Shown here piece by piece: positions 44,945 through 51,174 of a stretch of DNA of 64,000 bases. This stretch comes from Acholeplasmataceae bacterium. GTDB taxonomy: Bacteria; Bacillota_I; Bacilli_A; Acholeplasmatales; Acholeplasmataceae. The translations under genes were made by a program, and so were the position numbers. The stretch is from positions 496,001-560,000 of the forward strand of contig JAIOQX010000002.1 in NCBI GenBank assembly GCA_021108415.1, read 5' to 3'. Each line of letters starts with the position of its first letter. The first letter of the stretch is position 1. Under the pieces are notes generated by a model. That model saw nothing but the letters and a program-made list of their open reading frames with translations. It was not told the DNA's origin and searched no databases.

Positions 44945-45006
44945 ACTATCACCTTCTATAATCATAACATATAAATATGTGATATTATAAAATAAAGTGA
45001 AAGTGG

Positions 45007-45041
45007 TTGCATTTACACCCCAAAAAATGCTATATTATACT
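45007..45041 (+). promoter_or_regulatory. Promoter of the PrsA-like lipoprotein gene
   Basis: TTGCAT (45007-45012) is 18 bases before TATATT (45031-45036), which is preceded by TGC. An alternative pair is TTTACA (45012-45017) with TATACT (45036-45041). Confidence 0.55.
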
Positions 45042-45074
45042 TGCTTGTATGAAACAATTGAAGGAGTGAACACA

Positions 45075-48041
45075 ATGAATCAATTAAAAAACTTTAGAAG
45101 ACTTGCTCTACTTGTGCTTGTAGTTGCTGGTTCTCTAACATTAGCTGCCTGCAAGGGTAGTGACAAAACACCATATGGTAGTCTTTCAGACGATAATGTC
45201 TATCTAACTTATGGAGATTTAGAAGTAACTGAAATAGAATTATATGATCAACTTCGTATGCAAGGTGCTGCAACATTAGCAACTATGGTAGATGAAGAAA
45301 TATTTAAGACACAAATAATAGATGCTAAAGCTGATCTTGCTGCTGGCGATGAATCATTAATCGAATATTTAGATGAAACAGTAAACACAGCAATTTATGG
45401 GACTTCAGAATTAGAAGATCTACAAGATTTTTATGATGATACCCCTGAATTATATATTAGAAGTATTGAAAAATACGCAGATTCAGTTTATCTACTAGAT
45501 AATAGTATTGTTATTGATGATGTCATAAATGCAATTCTTGGATTAGCACAAACCCAAGAAAATCCATTCACTGGATATCACACACTTGACTTCTTACTTG
45601 AACGTTATGCATTAAGAGTTGCTCAAAGAGCATATGCAAATGAACTTTTAGTTGCTGAAGTTTTAGATGAAGAAAGTGATGCTTATATCTCAGATGAAAA
45701 TATTGTTACTTATTATAAGAACAATAAAGAAGGTCAATATGATACAGATGCTCTTGTTGTTCGTTTCATTAATTTAAATGAAGCAAATGCTGCATTATAT
45801 CAAGTTGGCTTAAAGCCTGATTCAAAAGGATTCTGGTATGCAATTCCTGATGTACGTATTACAGAAGGTAACCCAGGTTATGTTGATTTAGACAATCCAG
45901 ATTATGCTTATGTTTCAGAAATCTTAGATGATTTAGAAATCACATCTAAATTAGGTGTTGATGGCGAATCAAGAGAAATGATAACAGTTGATGACTATGA
46001 AGCATATTATAAAGCTTATGTTATTAACACTGATAGAAACGATGGTTTCTCAGATATCAAGTTATTACCTGAAGGTGTAAAAGCAAAATATATTGAAATA
46101 TATAATTTACTACACCCAGCAGCTCCGATCAAATTAGATACAGATGGTATCTCTATTGTTGGCGATGGCAATGATTACACAACTACTTATACTTATGACG
46201 ACTTAACAGAAATCAATACAAGCCTTAGAAGTCACATTTATGATACGTTAATCGCTGAAGCTGATATGGAAGATGTTGATGATACAACTGATGGTAAACC
46301 TTATTCTTCAAGAATCCAAACTTTTGGAGATGCTCGTTACTTAGTCTTTAAATTAGATGACCAAAGTGAAACTGAAGAAGGTATCTTAATCGAAGATCCT
46401 GAAAATAGTGAAGCTGAAGTATTCTCTAATACAGCTGAAGCTATCGCGATGATGGCTGAAATGAAAGACGAGTTAATTGACTCTAAACTAACTGATACAT
46501 ATATTTCAAGTAAAGTAAATGAAATGTATGAAGAAGAAACTTTAGATATTTATGATTCTGTTGTTAGATTATTCTATGAACAAAGTTATGGATATGATGG
46601 TACAGATACAAATAGAAATGGTGACATCTTAGCTTCTATGGGTGATATTGAAATAACTGTTGCTGACTTTTATGCAGAGTTAGAATCATCTTATGGTATC
46701 AATCTTGCATTAGACATTTTAGCTAACAAATGGTTAATGGCTAGTGAAGATTATACAGTATCAGATGCTGACAAAGATGATTACACAGAACAATTTGAAA
46801 ATATTATCTCACAATTTTCTGCTGATAACTTTGCTTCTTCTGGTTATCCAGCAAGCTTAGGTAGACAAAACTTCTTATTAACTGCTTTTGGTTCAAGATC
46901 AAATGCTGAAGCAATTGAAAACCTATATATTTATCCAGATTTAAGACAACAATACTTAGAAGATTATGAAGTTCATTTTGAAGATGCTAACATTTATGAA
47001 AGTCTTGCAACATTAGCTCAAAAACAATATGATAACTTTGAATCTATTACAGTAAGTCATTTATTAGTTTATTTTGACCAAAATGGTGATGGTACACCAG
47101 ATGATCCTCAAGAATATTTAGATACTCTAGATAATGCTGCTAAACAAGAAGTGTTAGATGGATTAGTTGATCTTGTAGATTTAATCTATTCACGTATTGG
47201 TATGTATAAAGGTTTCTCTGAAGCTTTAACTGCAATCGCAACTGACTTTAATGACTCAGGTCGTATTGAAACTGGTTCTACAGTTCCACCATATGATTAC
47301 ACATTAGAAAGTATTTGGGCTGAATATCGTCAATTAGGTTTCTATTTGAAGTTTGAAGGTATCTCTTCTGCAATTACAAATAAATCTAACTTCATCAGTG
47401 GTTCAAGTGTATTAGACGAAGTCTTCTACGACCGTGCAATGGAAATCCATGACACACTAGCTGAAATGGATGATGATGATTCTAAATTCCCATATCTTGA
47501 TTTCTATGATGCATGGGTAACTACAAGTAATGCAGTAAACCAAGCAGCTTTAGAATCTGTACAATCAGCATTTGGATATCATTTAATTTTAGCAACTAAA
47601 GTAGCTGAAACTACTTCTGCTATGTATGATGGTGTTAATGATTCTGATGGAGATTATGTATTAGCTGATGATGAAACACTTAATGCTTATAATACAGTAA
47701 GTGACACATTAACTGCTTCACAAATAGAATACTATTTAGTTGGTTCTCTATCTGATGAAGGTGTTGAATTGCCTACTGATGTACAAACAGCAATTACAAA
47801 TTACTTAACTCCAGTACTTACAGTTTATCAAGGTACTTACATGCAAAGAGAGTTAATCTTCAGTTTATTAGAAGATGCAGTATTCACTGATGCAGCAAAC
47901 AACTTGCGCATTGATGAAATCAGACAAATCAACTTAAATCAAATGCATAGTTATATGCTATCTGAAAATGGTGGAGTGTTTGACGCAAACTATGATGCAT
48001 TGTTTGGAGATATCCTAGATATCTTAGAAGGTAACGCTTAA
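45075..48041 (+). CDS. Giant PrsA/SurA-like foldase lipoprotein
   Basis: The 988-residue lipoprotein has lipobox LAAC after a lysine-arginine signal; the ATG at 45075 is 9 bases after AAGGAG, so an upstream frame from 44997 is rejected. Near the N-terminus YLTYGDLEVTEIELYDQLRM and MVDEEIFK resemble PrsA/SurA chaperone wording. Around residues 660-860, ITVSHLLVYF, a long helical part and FGYHLILATK resemble a parvulin prolyl isomerase. The usual domain is stretched by large insertions. DQNGDGTPDD within it resembles a calcium loop (DxNxDGxxD). PrsA proteins are near 300 residues, so this is over three times the norm. A folding role for surface proteins is inferred. Confidence 0.75.
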   Translation: MNQLKNFRRLALLVLVVAGSLTLAACKGSDKTPYGSLSDDNVYLTYGDLEVTEIELYDQLRMQGAATLATMVDEEIFKTQIIDAKADLAAGDESLIEYLDETVNTAIYGTSELEDLQDFYDDTPELYIRSIEKYADSVYLLDNSIVIDDVINAILGLAQTQENPFTGYHTLDFLLERYALRVAQRAYANELLVAEVLDEESDAYISDENIVTYYKNNKEGQYDTDALVVRFINLNEANAALYQVGLKPDSKGFWYAIPDVRITEGNPGYVDLDNPDYAYVSEILDDLEITSKLGVDGESREMITVDDYEAYYKAYVINTDRNDGFSDIKLLPEGVKAKYIEIYNLLHPAAPIKLDTDGISIVGDGNDYTTTYTYDDLTEINTSLRSHIYDTLIAEADMEDVDDTTDGKPYSSRIQTFGDARYLVFKLDDQSETEEGILIEDPENSEAEVFSNTAEAIAMMAEMKDELIDSKLTDTYISSKVNEMYEEETLDIYDSVVRLFYEQSYGYDGTDTNRNGDILASMGDIEITVADFYAELESSYGINLALDILANKWLMASEDYTVSDADKDDYTEQFENIISQFSADNFASSGYPASLGRQNFLLTAFGSRSNAEAIENLYIYPDLRQQYLEDYEVHFEDANIYESLATLAQKQYDNFESITVSHLLVYFDQNGDGTPDDPQEYLDTLDNAAKQEVLDGLVDLVDLIYSRIGMYKGFSEALTAIATDFNDSGRIETGSTVPPYDYTLESIWAEYRQLGFYLKFEGISSAITNKSNFISGSSVLDEVFYDRAMEIHDTLAEMDDDDSKFPYLDFYDAWVTTSNAVNQAALESVQSAFGYHLILATKVAETTSAMYDGVNDSDGDYVLADDETLNAYNTVSDTLTASQIEYYLVGSLSDEGVELPTDVQTAITNYLTPVLTVYQGTYMQRELIFSLLEDAVFTDAANNLRIDEIRQINLNQMHSYMLSENGGVFDANYDALFGDILDILEGNA

Positions 48042-48153: not shown

Positions 48154-49293
48154 TTAAAGATCATCTTCGTTTTCTTCGATTGGATCATCCTCTTCATCTT
48201 CATCTTCTTCATCTACGTCTTCATCATCTTCGTCTTCATCTTCATCATCTTCGTCTTCTTCATCTCTATCTACTTCATACTCTTCATCATCTAGTATAAG
48301 TTTGTATATAGTATTATTAGTTAAAGGATCGGTGATTATATAAACTTCAATCTCGCCATCTTTTTCAATTCCTTTAATAATAGTTTCATAATTTATAGAT
48401 AAGATAGCTTGTTCGTTTTTTTCTTCATAAGTAAACTCATAGACTCTTCTATCAACTCCATTGATAAATTCTAATTTAATTTCTATTTTATCATTCTCTT
48501 TTTCAATCTCTACAACTGATTCTTCAACAGTAATTGAGTTTACAACAGTTTTAAAACTAAACTTTGTCTCATCTTTGTCAATTTCATATTTAGATTCAAC
48601 ATAATTATCATCATCAATTAGTGATTTAAACTCTATAATTTCTTCATCATCTTCGATTTCTTTAGAACCTTGAATTTGATATGTCTTTTGGCCGTAGATG
48701 AGAATACCCTCCATTTGATAGTTTTCTTCATCATTTTCAATTGTTGAGCTTGTTATATTGTAATACATTGTATAAGTGATTGCACTATGTGTAAGGGTAA
48801 TCGTTTTAAATATAGACTTGTTCGTATATTCTGCAAGATCAGATTCAATTTCGGTGATATTAAAACCATCACCAATCGTGATAAATCTTTCTGCCATTTC
48901 TAAATATGGAACAATGGGATCAATCGGCGTTTGACTTGTTTGACTGCTTAATAAGACGATTTGATCAGAAGCTAGTAAAGCATCGCTTTCTAGATGAGAA
49001 AGTATTGATGATGTAGACATTGCACTAAATGAAACCACTTGATTTTCTGCGCTGAAAGCATATGGTTGTCTATTTATAACTTCTCTACTTGGTCTTAATG
49101 CAAATGCAGTAACTACTATAGCAATTAAAACAAATGAAGCAAATGATAAACCTAGTCTTTTATTAAAAGAAAAGCTTGTATTTTTAATTGGTTTATCATG
49201 TTTGATCAAACCAAAACTTGATGTATCCAAGCGCTCAGGGATACGGTTATCAATTTCTTGTCTTAATATTTTTTTAATTTGTTTTTGTTTCAT
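48154..49293 (-). CDS. Probable membrane anti-sigma factor with exterior sensor domain and polyacidic tail
   Basis: The 379-residue protein starts 1 base after the ECF sigma gene, the classic sigma/anti-sigma layout. It has about 48 cytoplasmic residues, a membrane helix at about 50-67, then a large exterior part. The exterior domain (roughly 125-345) is paralogous to that of the lipoprotein at 49896: GILIYGQKTYQIQGSKEIE here matches GILMYSDQTLDVYGEKEIE there. The last 40 residues are almost entirely Asp and Glu. No zinc-binding anti-sigma motif is seen in the short cytoplasmic part. The anti-sigma role is inferred from position and topology. Confidence 0.75.
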   Translation of the reverse strand: MKQKQIKKILRQEIDNRIPERLDTSSFGLIKHDKPIKNTSFSFNKRLGLSFASFVLIAIVVTAFALRPSREVINRQPYAFSAENQVVSFSAMSTSSILSHLESDALLASDQIVLLSSQTSQTPIDPIVPYLEMAERFITIGDGFNITEIESDLAEYTNKSIFKTITLTHSAITYTMYYNITSSTIENDEENYQMEGILIYGQKTYQIQGSKEIEDDEEIIEFKSLIDDDNYVESKYEIDKDETKFSFKTVVNSITVEESVVEIEKENDKIEIKLEFINGVDRRVYEFTYEEKNEQAILSINYETIIKGIEKDGEIEVYIITDPLTNNTIYKLILDDEEYEVDRDEEDEDDEDEDEDDEDVDEEDEDEEDDPIEENEDDL

Positions 49294-49294
49294 A

Positions 49295-49807
49295 TTATCC
49301 CCAACCTTTCTTCATTTTTTTTAACGCTTCATGATATATCCAAATCACTGTACCTAAGGGTTTATCAACTAATTTGGCGATATCCTTGTGTTTCATGTCA
49401 TCAACTATCTTAAATAGTATTATTTGTCGCTCATCATCACTTAAAACGCTCAACAGCGATTCAAATTCATCTTTTTGAGAAGGATCTTCTTCAATAGAAG
49501 TAAATTTTTGATCATAATCAACGTCATCAATGTAAGTTAATTTTTGATTTCTTCTATATGTATCTAAAGCTTTATTCTTAGCTATCATTAATAACCAATT
49601 GTAAAAATTTGTTTGCGGTTTATATTTGTCTATTTTGTCTAACATTAAAAGATATACATCTTGCATTAAATCTTGTGTTAGTTCATAATCTTTAACGATA
49701 TTATAGATGACAATATAAACTCCCTTTTTGGTTTGGGCATAAACGCGCTCAAATGCATCTTCATCTCTTAAAGCTAACTTTTCAATTGTTTTTTGTTTTA
49801 TGATCAT
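49295..49807 (-). CDS. ECF-type RNA polymerase sigma factor
   Basis: The 170-residue protein has region 2 (about 15-85), with YELTQDLMQDVYLLMLDKID and NFYNWLLMIAKNKALDTYRR. Region 4 is at about 115-165, with LSDDERQIILFKIVDDMKHK and AKLVDKPLGTVIWIYHEALK, the last being the -35 recognition helix. GAGGG precedes the ATG. It is cotranscribed with the downstream anti-sigma candidate and lies after the related lipoprotein gene, so all three likely form one regulatory unit. Confidence 0.93.
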   Translation of the reverse strand: MIIKQKTIEKLALRDEDAFERVYAQTKKGVYIVIYNIVKDYELTQDLMQDVYLLMLDKIDKYKPQTNFYNWLLMIAKNKALDTYRRNQKLTYIDDVDYDQKFTSIEEDPSQKDEFESLLSVLSDDERQIILFKIVDDMKHKDIAKLVDKPLGTVIWIYHEALKKMKKGWG

Positions 49808-49829
49808 TTTTTAAACCCTCACAACTAGA

Positions 49830-49857
49830 ATTAAGGGATAAAATATTATCCCTTAAT
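49830..49857 (-). promoter_or_regulatory. Inverted repeat between the lipoprotein and ECF sigma genes
   Basis: The 11-bp arms ATTAAGGGATA and TATCCCTTAAT flank six bases. No good T run follows on the minus strand, so it is a weak terminator at best. It lies just downstream of an extended -10 box, so it could be an operator or the 5' hairpin of the sigma mRNA. Confidence 0.5.
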
Positions 49858-49859
49858 CC

Positions 49860-49868
49860 ATTTTATCA
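49860..49868 (-). promoter_or_regulatory. Possible extended -10 promoter of the ECF sigma gene
   Basis: TAAAAT (49860-49865) with TGA before it on the minus strand; no -35 is recognised. Confidence 0.4.
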
Positions 49869-49895
49869 TAATTTGCTTATTAGTCCTTTTTTAGA

Positions 49896-51026
49896 TTAAT
49901 CATTTAATTCATCTTCTGAATCATCGTCTTCGTCATCTTCTGAATCATCATCTTCATCATCTTCTTCGTCATAGTCATCATCGTCATCTTCTCTATCTGA
50001 TTCATACTCATAGTCTAATTCTCCATCTGAATCTTCATCTACTAGAAATACATAAGTAGTTTCTTGTGTCACTTCATCTACGGAGATCAACACTTCAACT
50101 TCTCCAGCTTCTTCAACATCATCAACTACGGTTTGATATTCAATTTTTAATACTGGATTACCATCTTTAGTTTCATATTTGAATTCATATTCATATGCAT
50201 TTTCTTCAAATATATATTGTAATTCTACTTTGACTTCATTATCTTCTATTTTAATTTCAATTTCTGATTCTGAATAAACTTCACCATTTCTTACTTCTGT
50301 GATTGAAAATTCAGTTTTTTCATCTTCAATTATATATTCACTAGTTACATAATTTAATTTATCTATATAAGCTGTAAATTCTAAAGTTTCTTCATCCTCT
50401 TCAATCTCTTTTTCTCCATATACATCTAATGTTTGATCACTATACATTAAGATACCGGTAATTATAAATTCTAATTCATCCTCATCTTCTTCTTTTAAAT
50501 CTTGATTATAATATAATGTATATGTTGTTTTTTGATTTAAGATATCTAAAGCTTCAAATACTAACTTATATTCGTAAGCTTCTAAGTCTGAGTCTGATTT
50601 TACTACATCAAGTCCGTTATTACCTGATACGAATTTTTCCACCATACCTAAGAACTTTTCAGCTAATTCAACTGGAGTTTCTGTTTGTGTATCTTCAGTT
50701 ACTAGATCTTCTGTTTGTGGTTCTTCAGTTACAGGATTTTCAGTAGTTGGTTCATCTGTAGTTGGTTCATCTGTAGTTGGTTCATCTGTAGTTGGTTCAT
50801 CTGAGGTTGCTCCTGAAGTAAAATCAATCAATATATTATTCGAATGATCTATAGATAATACTTGATCTGACATTTGTTGTCCTAAAAGTGATGATGTTGT
50901 TATCGCTTGATAAGATAAAACATCCTCATCTGTTGCTAAACTAAACTGAGCTATTCCTAATTGTGAACAAGCTCCTAACACTAATGCTGCTGTCGCAAAT
51001 AATATTATTCCTAATATTTTTTTCAT
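49896..51026 (-). CDS. Lipoprotein paralogous to the anti-sigma exterior domain, with TTDEP repeats and acidic tail
   Basis: The 376-residue protein has lipobox LGAC, so it is anchored by lipid at Cys20. After a first part including LSYQAITTSSLLG (compare VSFSAMSTSSILS in the anti-sigma protein) comes a linker with four or five TTDEP copies. Then follows a domain (about 115-345) that aligns with the anti-sigma exterior: TYTLYYN with TYTMYYN, NYVTSEYIIEDEKTEFS with NYVESKYEIDKDETKFS, GEVEVLISVDEVTQETTYVF with GEIEVYIITDPLTNNTIYKL. The last 35 residues are almost all Asp and Glu. It is encoded just upstream of the sigma gene. It is not a family I know; an envelope sensor, ligand or target role is inferred. 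Confidence 0.8.
   Translation of the reverse strand: MKKILGIILFATAALVLGACSQLGIAQFSLATDEDVLSYQAITTSSLLGQQMSDQVLSIDHSNNILIDFTSGATSDEPTTDEPTTDEPTTDEPTTENPVTEEPQTEDLVTEDTQTETPVELAEKFLGMVEKFVSGNNGLDVVKSDSDLEAYEYKLVFEALDILNQKTTYTLYYNQDLKEEDEDELEFIITGILMYSDQTLDVYGEKEIEEDEETLEFTAYIDKLNYVTSEYIIEDEKTEFSITEVRNGEVYSESEIEIKIEDNEVKVELQYIFEENAYEYEFKYETKDGNPVLKIEYQTVVDDVEEAGEVEVLISVDEVTQETTYVFLVDEDSDGELDYEYESDREDDDDDYDEEDDEDDDSEDDEDDDSEDELND
50743..50802 (-). repeat. Four tandem copies of a 15-bp unit
   Basis: The plus-strand unit GTAGTTGGTTCATCT repeats four times without change and encodes the TTDEP repeats of the lipoprotein. Copy-number changes would stay in frame. Confidence 0.9.
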
Positions 51027-51174
51027 AGTTTCTACCTTCCCTTCACTTTATAAACGAATGTGATATAGTTTTTATTGGTAAAAAATTTATTTCTTTTACT
51101 AAATTATCAAAAAAACGTACTTATCCTCATACGTAAGCGATCTTTTTTATTATCAAAAATCATTAAAAATAAAA

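Follow-up and report, generated by a model that had tools for sequence, protein, structure and literature searches.

An ECF sigma factor operon of Acholeplasmataceae encodes a lipoprotein paralogous to the ectodomain of its putative anti-sigma factor

Results

The 64,000-nt window analysed here (the whole stretch of DNA under study) comes from the 1.78 Mb genome of a wall-less bacterium of the Acholeplasmataceae. On its minus strand lie three genes, in the transcription order lipoprotein (49896-51026), ECF sigma factor (49295-49807) and one-span putative anti-sigma factor (48154-49293), with the sigma gene between the other two as a preliminary description had placed it. Ahead of the first gene is an ECF-type promoter, CCAATAAAAACTATATCACATTCGTTTA (51051-51078, minus strand), with a -35 element CCAATA, a 16-base spacer and a -10 element CGTTTA. 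It lies 24 bases before the lipoprotein start codon, is an exact match to the consensus described below, and has the two conserved elements about 16 bases apart that characterise an ECF-type autoregulatory promoter.

The lipoprotein (376 aa) carries a signal peptide and the lipobox LGAC of bacterial lipoproteins, and its lipid-anchor residue, Cys20, is invariant in 40/40 aligned homologues. A beta-rich domain predicted by AlphaFold at residues 118-344 (49995-50675, minus strand) is followed by a tail rich in Asp and Glu at residues 345-376 (49899-49994, minus strand). The sigma factor (170 aa) consists of sigma-70 regions 2 and 4 only and falls within the size range of ECF factors (about 170-200 aa); both regions were found above cut-off in Pfam (Sigma70_r2, 8.9e-12; Sigma70_r4_2, 2.4e-8), as was the NCBIfam model TIGR02937 (1.4e-22). 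Between these two genes, a gap feature at 49831-49870 (minus strand) combines a sigma-A-like extended -10 element, TATGATAAAAT (49860-49870), with a perfect hairpin, TTAAGGGATAA-TATT-TTATCCCTTAA (49831-49856).

The third open reading frame begins 1 base past the sigma stop codon and encodes 379 aa with the topology of a membrane anti-sigma factor: one helix lies in a cytoplasmic N-terminus of about 44 residues, and a single membrane helix leads to a large exported domain. AlphaFold predicts helices at residues 3-17 and 45-65, the latter corresponding to the membrane helix (about 45-65). Outside the membrane follow a juxtamembrane helix (residues 83-108; 48970-49047, minus strand), the ectodomain (residues 125-342; 48268-48921, minus strand) and an acidic tail (residues 343-379; 48157-48267, minus strand). 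No recognisable anti-sigma domain (class I, zinc or helical) was found in this protein with Pfam or NCBIfam; from its gene position and topology it is likely to be the anti-sigma factor that inhibits the sigma factor. An RseP-type M50 protease is encoded in the same genome.

The ectodomain of the putative anti-sigma factor and the lipoprotein are true paralogues, as the preliminary description had proposed from aligned segments. BLASTP aligned the two exported proteins with 107/353 identities (E 3e-30, composition-adjusted), and comparison of the profiles of the two protein families gave a probability of 100 and an E value of 1.3e-55 over 275 columns. Acidic composition as the source of this similarity was ruled out: with the tails removed the local score was 418, compared with a maximum of 162 in 1000 shuffles that preserved composition within 10-residue windows and with 96 for the reversed sequence. 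A juxtamembrane helix is common to both proteins (residues 33-58 in the lipoprotein), as seen in the alignment and in both AlphaFold models, and carries the common motif VxSFSAxSTSSIL / VLSYQAITTSSLL.

The models of the two proteins (mean pLDDT 82.7 and 76.8; 50 and 40 sequences) do not have unrelated folds but one and the same, identical in helix order and in 15 strands. Register is constant for about 160 residues, from strand 158-165 of the anti-sigma factor through strand 309-321, and pLDDT of the lipoprotein is mostly 82-98 across residues 139-330. Neither a fold search of the PDB (E<=0.001) nor Pfam and NCBIfam returned a match to a solved structure or known domain for this ectodomain, and a profile search of PDB sequences matched a signal peptide only. 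Pfam and NCBIfam likewise held no enzyme or ligand-binding signature, the RsgI_M (SEAL) domain with its Asn-Pro motif was absent from both window proteins (Pfam, profiles), and RseB was matched neither in Pfam nor as a PDB fold at E<=0.001. The ectodomain represents a family without a named relative.

We then examined the distribution of this arrangement in up to 12 kb around each of 40 loci, of which 39 hold a sigma gene of the family, and in about 8 kb around another 80 taken from named genomes. Neighbouring genes were classed by profiles, and 104 distinct sigma loci resulted. The same ectodomain occurs in both the anti-sigma factor and the lipoprotein at 42 of the 104 (class A), so the matched pair of membrane-bound and lipid-anchored proteins and its gene set, which the preliminary description knew from one operon, recur in relatives. 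The lipoprotein gene is ahead of sigma in 30 of these loci and behind the anti-sigma gene in 12. At 21/104 loci (class B), an anti-sigma factor with the window-type ectodomain is followed by a lipoprotein with an RsgI_M (SEAL) domain (Pfam E about 1e-25) that, by profiles, does not share the anti-sigma ectodomain; one such operon lies beside leuS in the window's own genome (L058). Class C (7/104) has RsgI_M in both proteins, confirmed by Pfam in three loci. In these related operons RsgI_M (Pfam PF23750) has a conserved D-x-N-P motif and is found in lipoproteins and in some anti-sigma factors. Sigma and anti-sigma genes are therefore often accompanied by a lipoprotein gene, yet none was detected at 11 complete loci with a window-type anti-sigma ectodomain. 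Because 21 loci pair the ectodomain with an RsgI_M lipoprotein, it does not hold universally that partners share a domain and with it a ligand. The ectodomain was present in 110/395 sampled genomes of the class, from several families, and further lipoproteins that carry it sit away from sigma genes.

Both window proteins end in Asp/Glu tails, which the preliminary description had also recorded and which measure 30-40 residues; as a general trait the tails did not hold up. Both partners have a strongly acidic tail in 10/42 pairs and neither has one in 26/42; the acidity of one partner's tail correlates with that of the other (Spearman rho 0.68, species kinship uncorrected). Because the acidic tails are lineage-specific, and most relatives do without them, cation sensing through the tails, as had been suggested, is ruled out as the general core function.

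In an ectodomain tree rebuilt without the long branches of a first tree, the Acholeplasmataceae anti-sigma and lipoprotein copies cluster together (99/96, 24 rows) and separately from those of other lineages; branches in the tree are long and five rows deviate in amino-acid make-up. AU tests rejected monophyly both of the lipoproteins (p 0.013) and of the anti-sigma factors (p 0.016), and with it one ancient duplication. Independent duplication or gene conversion explains the tree, and on its evidence the beta-domain pair is re-made or homogenised, made alike again within a lineage. The Acholeplasmataceae grouping is as expected if sensor and twin must stay alike. We restrict this claim to the beta domain, as most RsgI_M lipoproteins and anti-sigma factors separate into two old groups; one possible exception attaches through long branches. 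Distances between anti-sigma factors and between lipoproteins correlate beyond those of sigma (partial r 0.59), for which conversion alone could also be the cause, and pairwise scores of partners from the same locus were not consistently above those of foreign partners.

The class A promoter consensus is CCAAYAAAA followed by CGTWT, with 16 (sometimes 17) bases from CCAAYA to CGT and an unconserved spacer. Its derivation used 14 upstream regions of class A and two sigma genes of class B, and positives from these are by construction; downstream lipoproteins, RsgI_M lipoproteins and most loci of named genomes are independent of the derivation. The broader form of the motif, CCAAYAAAA...[CT]GTWT, was counted as CCAAYA-N15..17-[CT]GTWW from -120 to +60 bases relative to the starts of all ORFs of 140 aa or more in the loci. 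It precedes 62/70 lipoproteins of these loci compared with 2/583 other genes (Fisher p 3e-75, kinship uncorrected). Lipoproteins encoded first have it in 31/35 cases, paralogous lipoproteins behind the anti-sigma gene in 12/12 and RsgI_M lipoproteins behind the anti-sigma gene in 19/23; the lipoprotein gene thus tends to have the promoter on whichever side of the sigma gene it is placed. Sigma genes without such a lipoprotein ahead also have it (47/68), and it was found before none of the 36 sigma genes placed behind a lipoprotein and none of the 102 anti-sigma genes. The sigma factor very likely recognises this motif.

The strict class A form, CCAAYA-N15..17-CGTWTA, has 18 matches in five genomes of the genus. 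Fourteen are intragenic, and the 4 intergenic ones each lie 24 bases before a lipoprotein gene, one per genome in the four genomes with the operon; that of the window is the sole one in its genome. Strict matches elsewhere in the genus being all intragenic, a wide class A regulon is ruled out at the level of the strict motif, by which the regulon was judged; weaker sites are indistinguishable from chance, a two-mismatch scan giving 53 matches against 57 in the reversed control, with no excess. Across the genus, the class B form (TGTATA) lies before the class B sigma operon and, as a separate promoter, before the RsgI_M lipoprotein; it also marks either a DUF2202 lipoprotein (genome G000; similar in G004) or a secreted subtilase (genomes G001, G002, G003). 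By these targets, class A resembles a closed loop and class B a small regulon of exported proteins. As the promoter precedes the lipoproteins and the strict motif has a sole intergenic site in each genome with the operon, the sigma factor probably has the lipoprotein as its main product.

In the window and its close relatives the gap between the lipoprotein and sigma genes holds the sigma-A-like -10 element with a strong hairpin directly after it. Interval folding gave strong stems whose sequence differs among close relatives, and an absent or weak hairpin in several distant ones. We infer a basal start for the sigma and anti-sigma genes and a partial uncoupling of these from the lipoprotein message.

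Discussion

An ECF sigma factor, a membrane anti-sigma factor and a lipoprotein are parts of known kind. To judge from the literature searched, three things have not been described before: a sensor paired with a lipid-anchored twin under sigma control, an ectodomain family that has no named relative, and the exchange between this family and RsgI_M. The preliminary description knew of no such pair, and none was found described in the open-access literature searched.

Several known systems share single features with this operon. In BlaR1 and class D beta-lactamases a sensor domain is homologous to a protein that handles the same ligand, but BlaR1 is not a sigma/anti-sigma system. RpoE-RseA-RseB of Escherichia coli also places an ECF sigma factor, a one-span anti-sigma factor and an exported partner in one operon. 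However, RseB is not known to be a lipid-anchored paralogue of a domain of RseA, as the window partner is of the anti-sigma ectodomain. RseB is a periplasmic protein that binds RseA (PMC8103513). Streptomyces SigE-CseA likewise has a lipoprotein gene within an ECF sigma operon, but works without an anti-sigma factor. Loss of CseA raises sigE promoter activity, CseA may act on the sensor kinase CseC, and SigE does not target the promoter of sigE (PMC6767563). In SigV-RsiV of Bacillus, as here, a membrane anti-sigma factor doubles as receptor, although its ectodomain is another one and its ligand is lysozyme. We know of no paired lipoprotein copy in that system. RsiV is described as the receptor itself, destroyed by regulated proteolysis (PMC4183432, PMC5014341). 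RsgI of SigI/RsgI (Bacillus, Clostridium) resembles the window protein in its cytoplasmic part, single membrane helix and signalling ectodomain, and RsgI_M occurs in the related operons described here; the window proteins differ in lacking RsgI_M, their ectodomain being of another family, and the window sigma is ECF and not SigI. RseP carries out site-2 cleavage of RsgI (PMC12203970), and a lipoprotein with a copy of the sensor domain was not found described in the SigI/RsgI literature.

We propose, at about even confidence, that the operon is an ECF loop complete in itself, and that the lipid-anchored sensor copy it puts out acts as a feedback decoy; instead or in addition, this copy may serve as an effector. 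At rest, the short cytoplasmic part of the anti-sigma factor would hold sigma at the membrane, as topology and operon structure suggest. An envelope signal sensed by the ectodomain would lead to destruction of the anti-sigma factor, probably by regulated intramembrane proteolysis with the RseP site-2 protease acting last. Freed sigma would recognise the observed motif CCAATAAAA...CGTWTA. Its sole clear intergenic target in the genome is its own operon, the first product of which is the lipoprotein with a second sensor ectodomain. This lipid-anchored twin would gather at the outer membrane surface of the cell and there most likely bind the same ligand, or replace the ectodomain in its assembly or at the site-1 protease. 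The signal may thereby be damped, a homeostatic feedback by a receptor-like decoy, and the sigma-A-type start before the sigma gene may hold basal levels of sigma and anti-sigma independent of the loop. An earlier suggestion that the lipoprotein competes for or titrates the signal fits the lipoprotein gene's own sigma-type promoter, with the binding itself putative; cation sensing by the tails, offered with it, does not carry over.

The loop is favoured by the paralogy and shared predicted fold, the placement of the promoter, the 42 matched pairs, the tree grouping with its AU tests, the second type of matched pair with RsgI_M, the partial r of 0.59 and the RseP-type M50 protease. Against it stand the 21 RsgI_M-paired loci, the 11 loci without a detected lipoprotein, the inconsistent scores of own partners and a regulon defined by the strict motif only. 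That the lipoprotein serves as a decoy or feedback arm is, on this balance, an evenly poised reading.

Alternatively, the lipoprotein could be the working product of the response, for example binding or neutralising a damaging ligand or protecting surface proteins, which we consider unlikely; on this unlikely reading the anti-sigma factor would gauge that ligand through its own copy of the domain, and feedback would be a by-product. With no further intergenic site of the strict motif across the genus, the obvious output is the lipoprotein, which has a sigma-type promoter ahead of its gene at any position. Lipoproteins with the ectodomain also exist away from sigma genes, and substrate sensors of the RsgI type in Clostridium thermocellum control genes serving those substrates, as two reports describe (PMC12203970, PMC4711584). 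However, neither Pfam nor NCBIfam shows an enzymatic or ligand-binding signature in the proteins, and class B RsgI_M lipoproteins do without the anti-sigma ectodomain.

A role as co-inhibitor, in which the lipoprotein binds the anti-sigma ectodomain and blocks site-1 cleavage until a signal parts them, seems less likely still, as does a contact through like-domain pairing or shared juxtamembrane helices. RseB is not known to be a copy of a domain of RseA, and some sigma/anti-sigma pairs have no lipoprotein. Partner distances do correlate beyond those of sigma, AlphaFold puts the matched domains of the two proteins about equally far from the membrane anchor, and RseB binds the periplasmic domain of RseA and must depart before cleavage (PMC8103513). 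Plain duplication, with a drifting ectodomain copy retained by chance beside the sigma gene, would be easy between neighbouring genes, but it is close to refuted by the AU tests and promoter placement, and is further opposed by the occurrence of the ectodomain in 110/395 genomes, the pair being re-made or homogenised and the invariant lipid-anchor Cys.

Beyond the window, the feedback-decoy reading can be generalised, although only tentatively: there may be a general class of bacterial signalling loops where the chief product of an ECF sigma factor is a lipid-anchored copy of the sensor of its anti-sigma factor, which would close the loop as a decoy receptor at the membrane surface. Such loops would use two domain families, the beta domain and RsgI_M, and the beta-domain pair would have been made alike on more than one occasion, by re-making or homogenisation.

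ECF systems have mostly been portrayed as a sensor and a switch that acts on many targets. In this operon the switch seems to act on a single clear target, the lipid-anchored twin of the sensor. The system recurs across Acholeplasmatales, Izemoplasmatales and relatives, and to our knowledge the envelope stress responses of Acholeplasmatales and Izemoplasmatales are almost undescribed. The promoter motif makes regulons readable from sequence in these genomes, and the ectodomain adds a protein domain with no solved relative. If the lipoprotein is a decoy, the operon would represent receptor-decoy feedback built from duplicated ectodomains in bacteria.

Ectodomain and RsgI_M pairings

The genome that carries the window holds a second ECF operon adjoining leuS (locus L058, G000:C2:13313-25774), in which a homologue of the window's anti-sigma factor is followed by a lipoprotein with an RsgI_M domain (E = 4e-25). 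This lipoprotein has its own promoter, CCAATAAAA-TGTATA, at C2:20872-20899. At loci L210, L219, L221, L203, L205, L234 and L075, mostly from Izemoplasmatales and related uncultured bacteria, RsgI_M with a D-x-N-P motif was found in the anti-sigma factor and also in its lipoprotein partner. The matched pair at these loci is based on a domain other than the window's ectodomain.

Lipoproteins with the window-type ectodomain were also found as orphans in two genomes (L316:2644-3639 and L317:2222-3217), distant from any sigma gene and flanked by transposase-like genes; their starts are near-identical between the two genomes. Another, of 596 aa (L321:1357-3147), has a sigma-type promoter upstream and no sigma gene on the 3.5 kb examined. 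The linker of the window lipoprotein consists of DEPTT repeats (window 50680-50800, minus strand), and an EEPVT repeat occurs at a different position in a relative, L054. Convergent with the window's sigma operon lies a gene for a 1014-aa lipoprotein-like protein (window 44997-48041, plus strand) with weak similarity to PRK00059, peptidylprolyl isomerase (E = 0.009).

Candidate regulon members

A class B type promoter (the form with TGTATA) lies 36 bases ahead of a DUF2202 lipoprotein gene (E = 6e-7; loci L268:1564-2115, in the G000:C1:254583 region, and L295), a probable regulon member. G004, of the same genus, encodes a lipoprotein that looks similar, at nearly equal promoter spacing. In three genomes of the genus (L296, L298, L306), such a promoter precedes the gene for a secreted S8 subtilase bearing a Listeria-Bacteroides repeat. 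This subtilase might serve as an effector or act in site-1 proteolysis.
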